Positions 43,458 through 61,525 of a stretch of 64,000 nucleotides of DNA are shown piece by piece. The position numbers were made by a program, and so were the translations under genes. Position 1 is the stretch's first letter. Each line of letters opens with the position of its first letter. The notes under the pieces are model-generated. The model was not told the origin of the DNA. It saw only the letters and a program-made list of their open reading frames with translations, and made no database searches. The DNA is from Halobacterium noricense. Lineage in GTDB: Archaea; Halobacteriota; Halobacteria; Halobacteriales; Halobacteriaceae. The stretch lies in NCBI RefSeq assembly GCF_021233435.1, contig NZ_CP089468.1, positions 1,674,001 through 1,738,000 of the forward strand, in the 5' to 3' direction.

Positions 43458-44624
43458 CTACCGGTGGAACCGGTCGTCAGGTGGCCGATTCGCGGGGACG
43501 GCCCGACGCACCGCGAGGGCCGTCCACGCAGCCCGCCGAACCATATTCACGAACTCCTTGTACGGCCACCACCAGAGGCGACGCCCGCCTCGGCGCGGCG
43601 TCGCCACGTATTCGTAGTGCAGATACCGCCACGCATTCTGCAAGAGCAGACTCACCACAACGTACAGAAGTCTCACCGTCGCGTTTCGCGTCGTTGTCGT
43701 CGCTATCGCTTGCTCGGACAAGCGATAGCTTGACTCGATACCGAAGCGTTTCGAGTAATGGTATCGAGCCTGGCGTGGTGTCTCGATAAACGGCGCGTCA
43801 GCGGCGTAGCCGTGACGCGCCACACCGTGGTCGTCGTACCGTCCGTTCAGGTACGTACAGTCGATGTAGACGGGAAACTCGACGGTCCAGCTGTGACCGT
43901 CGAGTTTCCCCGTCAGATCGTGTTGAATGACGCGACTCCACCCTTCCGCAAGTTCCTGCTGAATCGTCTTCCCCCACTGAATGATCGGGACCACGTAGGC
44001 GTAGTTGTGCGCCTGCAACAGCGTGAGACACTTGCTGTCGTAGAATCCGCGATCAAGGTAGACGGCCTTGACATCGGCGTCAAGGCCGTCGAGTACACCA
44101 AGAAACTCAGCGAGGACACTGCTGGCGGTGTCGCCGTCTTCGAGACGGCGCACCGCCAGCGTATATCGTTTGTTCTTCACACGCGCGTAGAGTGTGGCGT
44201 AGGCGTGGAATGCGGTGGTTCCACGCTTGGCTTCCGAGTGATAGAGGTTCTCCGTGTCGTCTTCATCACCGTAGTAGGGCCGCAGGTGGAGGTCTGCGCA
44301 GACCTCCACCTGCTCAGGAAGCAGTTCGACGATATCTCGTCGAAGAAGCGTGTTAGCGACTCGTTCGAGCCGTTTGGGCTCGAACTTCGTCCGGAGATGG
44401 TAGAGGATCGTGTTGGCAGCGGGGCCGTTCTGACTCGACGCACAGAGCGTAGAGACAGAGGTCCCGTCGGCGCAAGCGCCGACGAGGACCTCATAGATGC
44501 CCTCAGTAGTGATTTCAGCGTTATTGGCTAAGGAAAGCGGAACTTCCTCCTCAAGGGTGTTGACGAGAAAGTTAAGAAGCTGGTCCTCGTGAATCTCACT
44601 GTCTGCTTGCTGGGTCGTAGACAC
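43458..44624 (-). CDS. ISH3 family transposase
   Basis: 388-residue DDE transposase. EVCADLHLRPYYGDEDD carries the first catalytic Asp, AVYLDRGFYDS the second, and the Glu is in the RFGIESSYR segment near 300, the usual spacing of ISH3/IS4-like enzymes. GTG start at 44624, 47 bases inside the right end. The gene contains at least seven perfect inverted repeats, described in the findings. Confidence 0.93.
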   Translation of the reverse strand: MSTTQQADSEIHEDQLLNFLVNTLEEEVPLSLANNAEITTEGIYEVLVGACADGTSVSTLCASSQNGPAANTILYHLRTKFEPKRLERVANTLLRRDIVELLPEQVEVCADLHLRPYYGDEDDTENLYHSEAKRGTTAFHAYATLYARVKNKRYTLAVRRLEDGDTASSVLAEFLGVLDGLDADVKAVYLDRGFYDSKCLTLLQAHNYAYVVPIIQWGKTIQQELAEGWSRVIQHDLTGKLDGHSWTVEFPVYIDCTYLNGRYDDHGVARHGYAADAPFIETPRQARYHYSKRFGIESSYRLSEQAIATTTTRNATVRLLYVVVSLLLQNAWRYLHYEYVATPRRGGRRLWWWPYKEFVNMVRRAAWTALAVRRAVPANRPPDDRFHR

Positions 44625-45303: not shown

Positions 45304-47322
45304 TCAGTCGCGCTCGCCGAGCGCCGATTCGAGTTCGCCCACGACCTCGGGGTTGCGGAGCGCGCTGGTGTCCCCGAGGTCGTCGTCGTTGGCGATGTCT
45401 TCGAGGAGGCGGCGCATCACCTTCCCGGAGCGCGTCTTCGGGAGTTCGGGCGTGAACACGACCACGTCCGGGACCGCGATAGGGCCGATTGCGGCGTCGA
45501 CGGCGTCGGCGATGCGCTCGCGGAGCGCGTCCCAGTCGGTTTCCTCGGCGGCGCTGACGTACGCGTAGACGGCTTGCCCTTTGAGGTCGTGGGGGCCGCT
45601 GACGACGGCGGCTTCGGCGACGCCCTCGACGTCAGCGATGGCGGACTCGATCTCCATGGTCCCGAAACGGTGGCCGGAGACGTTGATGACGTCGTCCACC
45701 CGCCCGAGTAGCGTGACGTAGCCGTCCTCGTCGACGGTCGCGCCGTCCTCCGTGAAGTACGCCCAGTCGTAGTCGGAGAGGTCCGGGAAGACGGACGTGT
45801 GGTCGGTGAACCAGCCGTCGTTCTCGACCATCGACAGCGGCATCCCCGGCCACGGGCTCGTGACGACGAGGTAGCCGGTCTCACCCGGCTCGACGGAGTC
45901 ACCGTCGCCGTCGACGACCTTCGCGTCGATGCCCGGGAGCGGGAGGCCCGTCGAACCCGGCTTCATCTCGTCGACTCCCGGGAGCGTGGAGACCATCATG
46001 CCGCCGGTCTCGGTCTGCCACCACGTGTCTACCACCGGGCACTCCCCGTTCCCGATGTGTTCGTGATACCACTGCCACGCGCGCGGGTTGATGGGTTCGC
46101 CGACCGTCCCCAGCAGGCGGAGACTGGAGAGGTCGTGGCTGTCCGGGTGTTGTTCGCCCCACTTCATGAACGCGCGGATGGCGGTCGGCGCGGTGTAGAA
46201 GACGTCGACCGCGTTGCGCTCGATGAGCTCCCAGACGCGGTCCTTCTCGGGGTGGTCGGGCGTCCCCTCGTAGAGCATCGTCGTCGACCCGAGCGCCAGT
46301 GGCCCGTAGACGGTGTAGGAGTGGCCGGTAATCCAGCCAATATCCGCCGAACACCAGTGCGTGTCCTCGGGGCGGATGTCCAGCACGGCGTGGCTCGTCC
46401 ACGCCGCGTGCGCGAGGTAGCCTCCCGTCGTGTGGCGGACGCCGGTGGGTTCGCCCGTCGTTCCGGACGTGTAGATGAGGAACAACTGGTCAGTCGCGTC
46501 GCGGGGCACGGGGTCGACGGTCTCGCCGCGGTGCTCGGTGACGAGGTCGCCGTAGTCGTACTCGTCGGCGGCCAGCGGCGTGTCGTCATCCCGAGAGACG
46601 CCCTGCGTCTCTCTGTCGACTGCGGAAGACGACGGAGTCGTCTTCCGAACGCCGAGGCGGTCGACGACGACGGTCGCCTCGATGCCGTCGTCGAGCGCGA
46701 TGGCGGCGTTATCGGCCTTGTTCTTCTGGTGGACGGGCGCGCCGCGGCGGTAGTAGCCGTCGCAGGTCACCAGATACTCCGAGTCGGCGTCGTCCATGCG
46801 CATCGCGAGGGCGTCCGCGGAGAAGCCAGCGAAGACGACGGAGTGGGGTGCGCCGATGCGCGCGCACGCCAGCATCGCAATCGGGAGTTCGGGGACGACC
46901 GGCATGTACAGCGTGACCACGTCCTCCTCCTCGACGCCCAGCTCGCGGAGCGCGGCCGCGAATTCGTTAACCTCCCGGTAGAGGTCCAGATACGAGTACG
47001 ACCGTGACTCGCCGAGCCGGCCCTCCCACGTCAACGCGACCTGGTTCTTGCGGTCGTCGAGGTGGCGGTCGATGCAGTTGTAACTGGCGTTCAGCGTCCC
47101 GCCGTCGAACCACCGGAACGGCGGGCCGTCGCCGCCGATGACGGCGTCGTAATCGTCGCTCCAGTCGAGAAGGTCGGCGGCGCGTTCCCAGCACGCCGGC
47201 CACTCGCGTTCGAACTGCTCGCGGACGTCGGGGTCGGTGACGTTCGCTTGGTCGACAAACGACGCCGGTGGCTCCACGGACTCACCGGCGACCCCACTGT
47301 GCCAGGACTCGTCGCTCGGCAT
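45304..47322 (-). CDS. acs: Acetyl-CoA synthetase (AMP-forming), copy 2, with in-frame hairpin insertion
   Basis: 672-residue ACS, closely related to copy 1: IYTSGTTGEPTGVRHTTGGYL, WWQTETGGMM and RSGKVMRRLLEDIAND are present, although PTGV replaces the PKGV of the P-loop. Between VVVDRL and YDYGDLV it carries 18 extra residues relative to copy 1 (starting GVRKTTPSSSAVDRE), encoded by two perfect hairpins at 46593-46613 and 46623-46647. The start 47322 is an ATG 14 residues before the conserved SVEPPASFVDQANVTD. It probably still folds, since the insert is in a surface region before the AMP-binding motif; not proven. Confidence 0.9.
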   Translation of the reverse strand: MPSDESWHSGVAGESVEPPASFVDQANVTDPDVREQFEREWPACWERAADLLDWSDDYDAVIGGDGPPFRWFDGGTLNASYNCIDRHLDDRKNQVALTWEGRLGESRSYSYLDLYREVNEFAAALRELGVEEEDVVTLYMPVVPELPIAMLACARIGAPHSVVFAGFSADALAMRMDDADSEYLVTCDGYYRRGAPVHQKNKADNAAIALDDGIEATVVVDRLGVRKTTPSSSAVDRETQGVSRDDDTPLAADEYDYGDLVTEHRGETVDPVPRDATDQLFLIYTSGTTGEPTGVRHTTGGYLAHAAWTSHAVLDIRPEDTHWCSADIGWITGHSYTVYGPLALGSTTMLYEGTPDHPEKDRVWELIERNAVDVFYTAPTAIRAFMKWGEQHPDSHDLSSLRLLGTVGEPINPRAWQWYHEHIGNGECPVVDTWWQTETGGMMVSTLPGVDEMKPGSTGLPLPGIDAKVVDGDGDSVEPGETGYLVVTSPWPGMPLSMVENDGWFTDHTSVFPDLSDYDWAYFTEDGATVDEDGYVTLLGRVDDVINVSGHRFGTMEIESAIADVEGVAEAAVVSGPHDLKGQAVYAYVSAAEETDWDALRERIADAVDAAIGPIAVPDVVVFTPELPKTRSGKVMRRLLEDIANDDDLGDTSALRNPEVVGELESALGERD
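46593..46647. repeat. Two perfect hairpins inserted in acs copy 2
   Basis: GAGAGACGC-CCT-GCGTCTCTC and CGGAAGACGAC-GGA-GTCGTCTTCCG, nine bases apart. The arms are the same as, or near-identical to, two hairpins in the long MITE copies (47875-47897 and 49692-49714), and the base context aacgccg after the second is shared. Confidence 0.85.
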
Positions 47323-47371
47323 CGGTTGAAACCTACGGCCTAGCGCGAATAAACGTTCGCCCTCCAGCAAG

Positions 47372-47598
47372 GGTGGTGTTCAGATAAGCAGTTTCCAGCA
47401 GCAGAGTTGTGGGGGACAGCTGAAAGCCCTCGGCTGTCTCGGCTCCCGCGGCTCGCTGCGCGCGTTCGCTCCCGCTGGTCGCTCACGTGCTTGTGTCGCC
47501 GGGATTCGCCGAGACGCCTCGCCCTTTCAATCCACCAGGATTACCGGCTGTATCGGCGAGCACATCAAGCCAGTTTCAGTCCTTATCTGAACACTGCC
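47372..47598 (+). mobile_element. MITE-like element, copy A (227 bp)
   Basis: Non-coding element with inverted ends GGTGGTGTTCAGATAAGC / revcomp GGCAGTGTTCAGATAAGG. A perfect 8-bp direct repeat CCAGCAAG flanks it (47364-47371, 47599-47606). The interior shares gaaagccctcgg, tcgctcacgtgctt and cctttcaatcca with the three other copies in the same orientation. 8-bp duplications and GG-starting ends fit IS6 or IS1595 families; no parent transposase is in the window. Confidence 0.85.
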
Positions 47599-47606
47599 CC
47601 AGCAAG

Positions 47607-48149
47607 GGCAGTGTTCAGATAAGCAGACGAAAGTAGGGGAGACCCGTTGCGTTTTGAAAGCCCTCGGTGGTCTCGACTGTCGGGAGACTCGCAGTGCTCG
47701 TCTCCCGTAGTCTCGTTCGTTGCACTCACGACACTCCCGCGGCTCGCTGTCGCCGGCGGGCATAGCCCGCCGGCTGCCTGAGGGAGCTTGCTCCCTCTCT
47801 GTCGCCGAAAGAGCGCACAGCGCTCTTTCGAGAGCAGGCGAACGCAAAGCGTTCGCCGCCCTCGCGAATTGCGACGAGAGACGCTCCGCGTCTCTCGGAC
47901 CACACGCGTTCGCTCCCGGTGGTCGCTCACGTGCTTACTTCACTGGGGTTCGTCGAGTGGGCGGTCGGCTGCACCGACCGCCGCAAAACGTGGCGGCTTC
48001 GCCGCCACGCGCGCCTCACCCTTTCAATCCGCCGGAAATCTCCGATTTCCGAGGCCTCGGGAGAGCGTTGCTCTCCCGGCGACCACCAGGGAACCGGGTG
48101 ATTCGCCGGTTGAAGCTGCATTCAAACGACCCTTATCTGAACACCACCG
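47607..48149 (+). mobile_element. MITE-like element, copy B, long form (543 bp)
   Basis: Same ends and interior as copies A and D, plus about 300 bases holding nine consecutive perfect hairpins: 47752-47774, 47780-47797, 47806-47830, 47837-47857, 47875-47897, 47960-47982, 47989-48009, 48033-48051 and 48058-48078. Arms are 8-11 bases, loops 2-5. It abuts the right duplication of copy A. The right flank (gtaaacat) does not repeat the left, so no simple duplication exists. Confidence 0.85.
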
Positions 48150-48196
48150 TAAACATACACACTAGTTTTATTACGTCTAGCGATTAGGACGGTTGT

Positions 48197-49177
48197 ATGG
48201 ACCGTCGTGACACGTTAAAAACCATTACAACCGCTGCTCTTACTGTCGGCCTTGCTGGCTGTGCATCAACGATCACATCGGACAACCAGAACACCTGTTC
48301 ACCGCCATCTGGGACACCAGCAGATGTCGTCGAGGTTACTGACGATTCACTAACACAGGAGAACATCGATACTAACCCGGGTGACTTCGACGACATCAAA
48401 GACAGCGCACTTGCGAGGTACTCCAATAGTAGCGGAGATACACTTGGAATCGGCGCATATCAGTTTGAGTCGACGACGGCTGCCGAACAGATTTTTGAAC
48501 GGGATTTCACGGTAGAGAATGACTCTGTCGGGAAACTCCATCTTGAACACTGGCTAATCCTCGCTCAGGCACCGACGGAGACAGGCTTGCGTTCGTTGGT
48601 TGCTGCATCCGGGGTTGAGAGTGGCTGTGAAGACCAGCTTGTCATTAACGGCGAAGCGCAAACAGATACCAGCGAAGACGGCGCAAATAACCTTGGAAGT
48701 GAAGGATCCCCTTGGACGGGTGTGGAGATCGAACTCAGGGGAGGGTCACCCACAGAGATCCGCCAAGTGTTCGATACTCCGGCTCCTGTAATATTGACTG
48801 GCGACGACACACAGCTGGTTTTCTTCGAAACGAAGGATTATCAAGCAGTCCAAGACACCGCCGAGGAAGCGGGATTTAACGTGGTAAGTATAACGAAGAC
48901 ACAGCTCTCAGGAGAACCAATCTGTGAGATTCGAAGTAAAATCCAAATCTCCGCCACTCCATCTCAGCAAGCAATTCAAGACGCATTCCCCGACGCAGTT
49001 AAATCCGGACAAATCGCAACTACTTCTGGTGGCAGGTACTGGCTAATTTACTCTCGTGCGGACACCCAAGACCAAATCTCATCGCGTCTAGAGAACCTCT
49101 CTGTCGACACTTCCTCTGCGATGGTGACAACCTACAATAGTTGTAACCACAGAGACACGGACGATCCCGAGTCCTGA
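48197..49177 (+). CDS. Haloarchaeal Tat lipoprotein of unknown function
   Basis: 326 residues. MDRRDTLKTITTAALTVG and the lipobox LAGC form a Tat/lipoprotein signal; the mature protein is acidic and Ser/Thr-rich with no recognised domain. Two similar stretches (FESTTAAEQIFERDF... and SATPSQQAIQDAFPDA...) hint at a repeated fold. Base composition is about 50% GC, far below neighbours, and the gene lies exactly between two long MITE copies, so it was probably acquired. Confidence 0.75.
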   Translation: MDRRDTLKTITTAALTVGLAGCASTITSDNQNTCSPPSGTPADVVEVTDDSLTQENIDTNPGDFDDIKDSALARYSNSSGDTLGIGAYQFESTTAAEQIFERDFTVENDSVGKLHLEHWLILAQAPTETGLRSLVAASGVESGCEDQLVINGEAQTDTSEDGANNLGSEGSPWTGVEIELRGGSPTEIRQVFDTPAPVILTGDDTQLVFFETKDYQAVQDTAEEAGFNVVSITKTQLSGEPICEIRSKIQISATPSQQAIQDAFPDAVKSGQIATTSGGRYWLIYSRADTQDQISSRLENLSVDTSSAMVTTYNSCNHRDTDDPES

Positions 49178-49324
49178 TAGTGTGGATCGCCGTACCAGCT
49201 ATCTGGATGGCACAGTATTCGATACACTCATTTGACCACAAGAGTGGGGAGCTCACTCCAAGAGAAAAGGTCAGCTCGTAACAAGCAGAAATCTACCTTC
49301 AAGGCGAAGAGACGCTCCATTCAC

Positions 49325-49924
49325 GGCAGTGTTCAGATAAGCAGACGAACGTAGCGGAGACGACGTTGCGTTTTGAAAGCCCTCGGCGGTCTCGACCGAT
49401 GGGAGACTCGCAGTGCTCGTCTCCCGTGGTCTCGTTCGCTGCACTCACGACACTCCCGCGGCTCGCTGTCGCCGACGGGCTATGCCCGCCGGCTGCCTGA
49501 GGGAGCTTGCTCCCTCTCTGTCGCCGAAAGAGCGCACAGCGCTCTTTCGAGAGCAGGCGAACGCGAAGCGTTCGCCGCCCTCGCGAATTGCGACGAGAGA
49601 CGCTCCGCGTCTCTCGGACCACGCGCGTTCGCTCCCGGTGGTCGCTCACGTGCTTACTTCGTCCTCAGAACCCGTCGGGTTCTGATGGGCGCGGAAGACG
49701 CGCCGCGTCTTCCGAACGCCGGGGTTCGTCGAGTGGGCGGTCGGCTGCGCCGACCGCCGCAAAACGTGGCGGCGAAGCCGCCACGCGCGCCTCGCCCTTT
49801 CAATCCGCCGGAAATCTCCGATTTCCGAGGCCTCGGAAGAGCGTTGCTCTCCCGGCGACCACCAGGGAACCGGGTGATTCGCCGGTTGAAGCTGCATTCA
49901 AACGACCCTTATCTGAACACCACC
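49325..49924 (+). mobile_element. MITE-like element, copy C, long form (600 bp)
   Basis: Same ends and hairpin train as copy B with two more hairpins: TCAGAACCC-GTC-GGGTTCTGA (49665-49685) and CGGAAGACGC-GCC-GCGTCTTCCG (49692-49714), inserted between tgcttacttc and the ggggttcgtcgag block. Differences to B are mostly single substitutions; in C the first and last hairpins each have one mismatch. No 8-bp duplication is seen (ccattcac left, ctttcctc right). Confidence 0.85.
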
Positions 49925-49961
49925 CTTTCCTCCGGAGCGAGCGAGAAGGCAGCGGCAGGCG

Positions 49962-60679: not shown

Positions 60680-61327
60680 ATGAGTACGACTCGCGCGCCC
60701 GTCGACCGCCTCCGGTCGTTCGTCGGCGTGCTCGGCGACCGACGAACCTACCGCCGGATTCTCTACTTGCTCGCGGCGATTCCGCTCGGCTTCCTCTACT
60801 ACGTCGTCCTCGCGTTCGGGTTCGTGTTCGGCGTCGCGCTCGCCGTGTTCGTCGTCGGCATCCCCATCCTACTGGCGACGCTGCTGGTCGCACGCCTGCT
60901 CACGGAGGGAGAACGCCGGCTCGCGAACGCGCTCCTCGATACCGATATCGCCCCCCGCGACGGCTTGCCGTCGCTCCCCGAGGACGGCGTGCTCGAGGTT
61001 GTCAGCGCGCTCGTCCGCTCGGACACGACGTGGCGCAGCGTCGCCTTCCTCGTCGTGAAGTCGCTGGTCGGCTTCCTCACGTGGCTGTTCGTCCTCCTCG
61101 CCGGCGTCGGCGCGCTCGTGCTCCTCCTCGCCCCGCTCGGCGGCACCGCCACCATCCTCGACGTCTGGACCATCGACACCCTCGCGGAGCGACTGCTCGC
61201 GTTCCCACTCGGCGTCCTGCTCGCGCTCACCGCCGTGCACGTGCTCGTCGCCGCAGCCGACCAGACCGGGGACATCGCGGTCGCGCTCCTCGGGAATGGC
61301 AGTGTTCAGATAAGCAGACGAAAGTAG
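60680..61327 (+). CDS. Membrane sensor-domain protein, 3' end altered by MITE insertion
   Basis: 215 residues. Four helices in two pairs (IPLGFLYYVVLAFGFVFGVALAVF with its partner, and LVGFLTWLFVLLAGVGALVLLL with its partner) fit the haloarchaeal 'putative sensor' domain. The last six codons (GSVQISRRK region) come from MITE copy D, which starts after LLGN. The sequence after the MITE would give GSEE and stop if the element were removed, so only the extreme C-terminus changed. Confidence 0.8.
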   Translation: MSTTRAPVDRLRSFVGVLGDRRTYRRILYLLAAIPLGFLYYVVLAFGFVFGVALAVFVVGIPILLATLLVARLLTEGERRLANALLDTDIAPRDGLPSLPEDGVLEVVSALVRSDTTWRSVAFLVVKSLVGFLTWLFVLLAGVGALVLLLAPLGGTATILDVWTIDTLAERLLAFPLGVLLALTAVHVLVAAADQTGDIAVALLGNGSVQISRRK

Positions 61328-61525
61328 CGGAGACGACGTTGCGTTTTGAAAGCCCTCGGTGGTCTCGACTCCCGCGGCTCGCTGCGCGCGTTCGCTCCCG
61401 TTGGTCGCTCACGTGCTTACGTCGCCGGGGTTCGTCGAGACCGCCTCGCCCTTTCAATCCACCAGGAAATCGGCTGGTTCGCCGGCTGAAGCTGTGTTCA
61501 GATGAATCCTTATCTGAACACCGCC
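61298..61525 (+). mobile_element. MITE-like element, copy D (228 bp)
   Basis: Short form like copy A, same orientation, ends GGCAGTGTTCAGATAAGC and revcomp GGCGGTGTTCAGATAAGG. Flanked by 8-bp TCGGGAAT (61290-61297) and TCGCGAGT (61526-61533), six of eight identical; TCGGGAGT is the likely ancestral target. Lies in the 3' end of the sensor-domain gene. Confidence 0.8.

Follow-up and report, generated by a model that had tools for sequence, protein, structure and literature searches.

For the trains of perfect hairpins carried by a MITE family of Halobacterium noricense, the most probable explanation is that double-hairpin elements with a mobility of their own are nested in a MITE that serves as their landing pad and that is itself moved by an IS6-family transposase. 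The DNA analysed was a stretch of 64,000 nucleotides (hereafter the window), to which all plain coordinates refer. Hairpins with identical linkers were found both in the window and at other loci where the MITE ends are absent (all loci being numbered with the prefix L), and, as judged from sequence, they are separate from the MITE and constitute miniature elements of their own. The preliminary description had treated the hairpins as an architecture proper to the MITE; this has to be given up, because the same pairs are present in genes, intergenic DNA and other IS of many haloarchaea. In this group, the hairpins thus seem to represent a widespread kind of miniature mobile DNA that has received little study.

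The four named copies (A to D, Table 1) belong to one MITE family that includes the long forms, as had been proposed, and the perfect 8-bp duplication claimed for copy A is present (CCAGCAAG on both sides, 47364-47371 and 47599-47606). The flanks of copies B and C do not match, with no 8-bp target duplication at either. In a BLAST search with copy C combined with a pattern search of the 3.3-Mb genome, the inverted repeat GTGTTCAGATAAG was found 68 times, compared with 0 for the reversed control. About 24 complete copies were read, with lengths of 113, 208, 227-228, 281-285, 391, 431 and 502-609 bp, and perfect 8-bp target duplications were observed for at least 13 MITE copies and for IS copies L057 and L059. 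No transposase gene is present in the MITE, its complete copies (113-609 bp) being without a long conserved ORF. The 697-bp elements L057-L062 have TIRs identical to those of the MITE and encode an IS6-family transposase (NF033587, E 4e-59; PF13610). Since these ends are identical, the carrier is taken to be a non-autonomous relative (MITE) of the IS6-family element, and the common ends and the 8-bp duplications show that it is moved in trans by an IS6-family transposase.

Table 1. Features of the MITE copies, their hairpins and the neighbouring insertion-bearing gene; positions are those of the window
Feature	Position	Strand	Details
Acetate-CoA ligase gene holding insertion, adjoins MITEs	45304-47370	-	TIGR02188, E 2e-231
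Hairpin-pair insertion in acetyl-CoA synthetase gene	46588-46650	-	63 bp, in frame, residues 241-261; hairpins 46593-46613 and 46623-46647
MITE copy A	47372-47598	+	227 bp; hairpin block absent; TIRs GGTGGTGTTCAGATAAG/CTTATCTGAACACTGCC
MITE copy B	47607-48148	+	542 bp; 9 perfect hairpins
B hairpins, site 2	47752-47897		47752-47774, 47780-47797, 47806-47830, 47837-47857, 47875-47897
B hairpin pair, site 4	47960-48009		47960-47982 and 47989-48009; loop TTC (copy C: GAA)
B hairpin pair, site 5	48033-48078		48033-48051 and 48058-48078
MITE copy C	49325-49924	+	600 bp; 9 perfect hairpins
C double-hairpin unit, site 3, absent in B	49661-49717		immediately before GCC
MITE copy D	61298-61525	+	228 bp; hairpin block absent
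Filled/empty pairs			GpgS GAC; fibrillarin GAC; DUF2070 GAC; MITE site 3 GGC; L218 GGC

Several other features were noted around the MITE copies. A composite transposon consisting of copy B, the intervening gene and copy C was rejected, as the outer flanks (CCAGCAAG and CTTTCCTC) differ. The ORF between B and C (48197-49177) encodes 326 aa with a lipoprotein-like start and had no Pfam or NCBIfam match. Halobacterium sp. KA-4 (L178) and CBA1126 (L179) have about 1.05 kb of different sequence in place of the region 47370-49960. The gene at 43458-44624 encodes an ISH3-family transposase and was rejected as the partner of the MITE because it belongs to another family; identical hairpins lie in series near genome position 304770-305844 (L102), which suggests that this ISH3-family IS has a second copy there. 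In genome G000, two 1.6-kb elements (C1:1582275-1583907 and 2008088-2009667) have MITE ends with apparently other DNA inside, and one of them shows a perfect 8-bp duplication (GTATGAGG). Carriage on known plasmids or phages was rejected for lack of any match.

Perfect hairpins (arms of 8 or more, loops of 2-5 nt) are absent from copies A and D; for copies B and C, the numbers (Table 1) compare with a mean of 0.07 and a maximum of 1 (B) and a mean of 0.12 and a maximum of 2 (C) in 500 dinucleotide-preserving shuffles. The window as a whole holds 48 hairpins, of which 18 are in B and C, compared with 10 in first-order Markov sequence; the census covered the window together with a 400-kb sample partly picked for matches and is biased upward outside the window. 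The arms reach 12 bp (8-11 had been stated before). At one place copy C exceeds copy B by two hairpins (49665-49685 and 49692-49714), in agreement with the preliminary description, and it carries two additional imperfect hairpins near 49471-49493 and 49834-49854. The extra unit at site 3 reads GTCC[TCAGAACCC gtc GGGTTCTGA]TGGGCG[CGGAAGACGC gcc GCGTCTTCCG]AAC (hairpins in square brackets), a unit type that is also found in genes.

Hairpin blocks occupy about five fixed positions, each filled in some of the roughly 24 complete MITE copies and empty in others. The 228-bp copies, for instance, read CAATCC-ACCAGG where others have [CGGAAATC tcc GATTTCCG]aggcct[CGGGAGAGC gtt GCTCTCCCG] in between, and this pair is the sole block in some MITE copies of 281-283 bp. 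The proposal that hairpins are gained or lost as units holds across these copies, with the correction that the units are mostly pairs or blocks rather than single hairpins. Secondary deletions between similar arms were seen in some copies (L021, L023, L065, L066). The idea that the MITE is a landing site is likewise supported.

In the MITE and outside it, the units are mostly pairs of perfect hairpins (about 18-27 nt each, loops 2-5 nt) joined by a short conserved linker, with a total length of about 56-63 bp, or 87 bp for a triple. Next to the MITE copies, the acetyl-CoA synthetase gene contains such a pair (Table 1), which is absent from the Halobacterium orthologues L120, L122-L126, L178 and L179; alignments to genomes G006 and G010 split at residues 240/262, indicating that the insertion is absent there too. 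Further in-frame insertions were found in the genes for glucosyl-3-phosphoglycerate synthase (GpgS; 60-bp pair), fibrillarin (60-bp pair) and a DUF2070 protein (87-bp triple), and all three are absent from other Halobacterium genomes at the sites read. The inserts of GpgS, fibrillarin and a 233-aa protein (two inserts) use one reading frame, giving the peptides RKTTxSSSAxHQ and then xxxxxSxD. IS genes are also affected: in another haloarchaeal genome a 56-bp pair interrupts an IS6 transposase gene (L218, compared with the intact paralogue L057), and units occur at the start of IS6-type transposase genes in L258 and L259. Clean insertions against empty orthologous sites, and the same units in different contexts, demonstrate in alignment that the units insert as wholes.

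In addition, a number of related sequences were observed. The 233-aa protein (L117, 10012-10713) contains two in-frame hairpin pairs, each inside a repeated ADELGxRKTTESSSAAHQNTECxEDVD, which would fit the duplication of a single insertion along with its surroundings. The acetyl-CoA synthetase gene of genome G002 (L121) has another in-frame insertion, VRDGGESSDA, at the place of the 63-bp insertion; it contains no perfect hairpin and is perhaps a decayed unit. Loci L099, L103, L105, L113 and L116 as well as MITE copies share a core GAAAGCCC...CCCTTTCARTCC, whose halves form a stem and whose arms vary by copy; this core recurs in intergenic DNA without MITE ends, with two inverted copies adjoining in L052 and L151. 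A 21-nt imperfect palindrome, GCAGTAGGGNGGGGATACAGC, directly adjoins hairpin units in L202, L209 and L074, being flanked by units of opposite orientation in L202 and lying upstream of an IS605 tnpA gene in L209. At L190, in another haloarchaeal genome, about six hairpins follow one another in a train, and their arms belong to other families (TCAGAAATC, CGAGAAC and CGTGAATC).

On one strand the insert reads GRC|N[CT]T-[CGGAAGAC..GTCTTCCG]-CAGCCCA-[TCAGAAC..GTTCTGA]-GGAC|, and the five cleanest filled/empty pairs (Table 1) fit insertion 3' of GRC with GGAC as the element end. These five pairs require no target duplication, and a 3-bp duplication of GAC fits GpgS and fibrillarin equally well. 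The acetyl-CoA synthetase junction lies a few bases off the GRC rule, which is not clearly followed at MITE sites 4 and 5 either. Hairpins stand within about 4 nt of both unit ends, that is, they are subterminal.

The TCAGAAC..GTTCTGA type, the sole hairpin type searched widely, was found in a class-wide search in 189 of the 294 haloarchaeal genomes, representing 62 of the 78 genera, with up to 25 copies, and the control for this search gave single matches in a few genomes. Similarity to copy C was found in 58 of 98 relatives, mainly across the hairpin pairs. A search of open-access papers, without their supplements, turned up no account of hairpin units of this kind from haloarchaea.

Within a hairpin type, the outer arms and linkers are constant and the inner pairs and loops differ. 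The inner pairs are nevertheless Watson-Crick in 111 of 124 cells at the 76 listed haloarchaeal sites matching TCAGAACN{2,12}GTTCTGA, a pattern that leaves the inner pairs free while its anchors select palindromic outer arms and in which related copies are non-independent; in the Halobacterium noricense genome the figure is 30 of 30. Loops that are reverse complements of each other occur among the MITE copies (TTC/GAA in hairpin H, ATA/TAT in K, TCC/GGA in I and TGC/GCA in G). Mini-hairpins of the d(GCGAAGC) type are unusually stable as DNA. A mini-hairpin of this type was employed in PMC4686876. Counted once per genome and type, GNA or TNC loops make up 20 of 52, compared with an 11% background in the window.

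Perfect arms, variable but matched centres and loop flips are also what would be left if the hairpins were made in situ by a mutational process such as fold-back synthesis or template switching, the recurring families being old products spread with the MITE and by duplication. Such a process may explain the variation of the centres. As an account of the hairpins themselves it is unlikely, since it would not repeat one sequence, whereas the two-hairpin unit with its linkers recurs at unrelated gene sites of one genome and in many genera, at positions empty in relatives.

Stems that remain paired despite sequence change could instead reflect selection, in the long MITE copies, on a structured RNA or on several RNA hairpins, and by sequence inspection the linkers of one strand can lengthen the first stem through a T.G pair. 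This folded non-coding RNA, which the preliminary description had suggested, is not supported and is considered quite improbable: an Rfam scan gave two chance-level matches only, far below gathering scores; at least four genes carry units as translated, in-frame sequence; and stem mismatches on the strand read are A-C/C-A in 19 cells and G-T/T-G in 5 (MITE copies, few independent events), so that G-U is not in excess of A-C. Because of the loop reversals, the GNA/TNC loops, which fit DNA hairpins, and this lack of a G-U excess, the data point to folding at the DNA level rather than the RNA level. An ancestral long MITE, with the short copies and scattered hairpins as deletion products or decayed fragments, would suit the copies that resemble recombination or deletion products (the 113-bp L065, L021 and L023 with the site-5 pair cut to CGGAAATCGGCTG, and L066 with fused arms from two hairpins) and several outside loci that retain a MITE-like backbone without TIRs, but it is just as improbable and is contradicted for the units in genes, where the insertions consist of hairpin units only with no MITE backbone, the empty state is common to other species, and the unit boundaries are those of MITE site 3.

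Read as mobile units, the hairpins insert into protein and IS genes as well as into intergenic DNA and the MITE, and they would be moved in trans, in single-stranded form, by a hairpin-reading enzyme. Trains would accumulate in the MITE since it takes up insertions without harm, and would then be multiplied along with it, and the loop flips and matched arm changes could arise by processing of hairpins or cruciforms, through template switching or junction resolution. Whether this extends to the group as a whole, that is, to a mobile double-hairpin class across most haloarchaeal genera, with outer stems and linkers as recognition signals, centres that are rewritten yet palindromic, entry into genes in frame, IS and MITEs, and a hairpin-reading enzyme as mover, is judged to be evenly balanced.

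In IS200/IS605 elements the target is retained on the left side, the right end has a cleavage site similar to it, and hairpins are located near both ends. The boundary layout of the units corresponds to this end layout, of which haloarchaeal examples have been described (PMC3119063). The position 3' of GRC, the GGAC end, the dispensable target duplication and the subterminal hairpins suggest a Y1 (HUH) enzyme of the IS200/IS605 type as the likeliest mover, at somewhat less than an even chance. The Halobacterium noricense genome has four intact Y1 transposase genes. Its own IS605 ends were rejected as the source of the hairpins, since the hairpins flanking its own tnpA genes (CCACGACT.. and CCCACGGCT..) are unlike the units. 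Y1 genes are present in 141 of 189 unit-bearing and 62 of 105 unit-free genomes, a weak association (P 0.008 without phylogenetic correction) that makes Y1 presence a weak predictor of units; 48 unit-bearing genomes are without a Y1 match.

These units bear on a long-open question, namely how palindromic elements such as Rickettsia palindromic elements (RPEs) and mitochondrial double-hairpin elements move. The haloarchaea include cultivable and genetically tractable members, and the mechanism becomes directly testable in them, given the many copies, the recent insertions with their exact empty sites and the short candidate target (GRC). Insertions that lengthen core proteins (fibrillarin, acetyl-CoA synthetase) by about 20 residues represent a source of new protein sequence in archaea. 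In the stem centres, the matched changes provide a natural record of DNA hairpin processing by cells.

Among known systems, the carrier resembles IS6-family MITEs in its TIR shared with an IS6 element, its 8-bp duplication and its lack of a transposase, and differs in that its long forms hold foreign hairpin units. MITEHsal2 of Halobacterium salinarum (PMC10264941), likened here by description only, belongs to the same genus, is of similar size (411-413 bp) and has a 6-8 bp duplication, and the two may be one family; hairpin content is not mentioned in the main text of that paper.

The closest haloarchaeal parallels to the units are the PATEs and IS605-type transposons of Haloquadratum walsbyi (PMC3119063), which are likewise non-autonomous, with subterminal palindromes and a tendency to lie within other mobile elements; they have a 52-bp terminal-only form, and their short targeting sequence and lack of a target duplication would fit the unit boundaries. 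The units described here, set apart by description, are perfect triloop hairpins of about 60 bp with variable centres that enter core genes in frame, and the IS605 elements of Halobacterium noricense itself bear other hairpins. As their ends are unmatched by the IS605 elements in the genome, the units are not classed as IS605-derived. REPs and REPINs with RAYT Y1 transposases (PMC3116915, PMC3733652) are also short paired palindromes with proposed single-stranded transposition, but their conserved GTAG/CGTC tag is not established for the units, and no RAYT gene with units on both sides was found.

RPEs (PMC10969869) are likewise palindromic units that occur both in intergenic DNA and, in frame, within unrelated genes for proteins; separated by description, they are bacterial and about 100-150 bp long, whereas the present units are archaeal, paired, 56-87 bp long and also fill a MITE. 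The double-hairpin or repetitive hairpin-forming elements in mitochondria of Allomyces and sponges (PMC2800124) consist of two tandem hairpins with conserved stems and variable loops, build multi-hairpin structures by tandem insertion and also lie within genes. Those elements are organellar, and in the haloarchaeal units the stem centres covary too and the insertion sites have a short consensus. The units can be regarded as a variant on known palindromic elements, with a real chance of forming a separate class.
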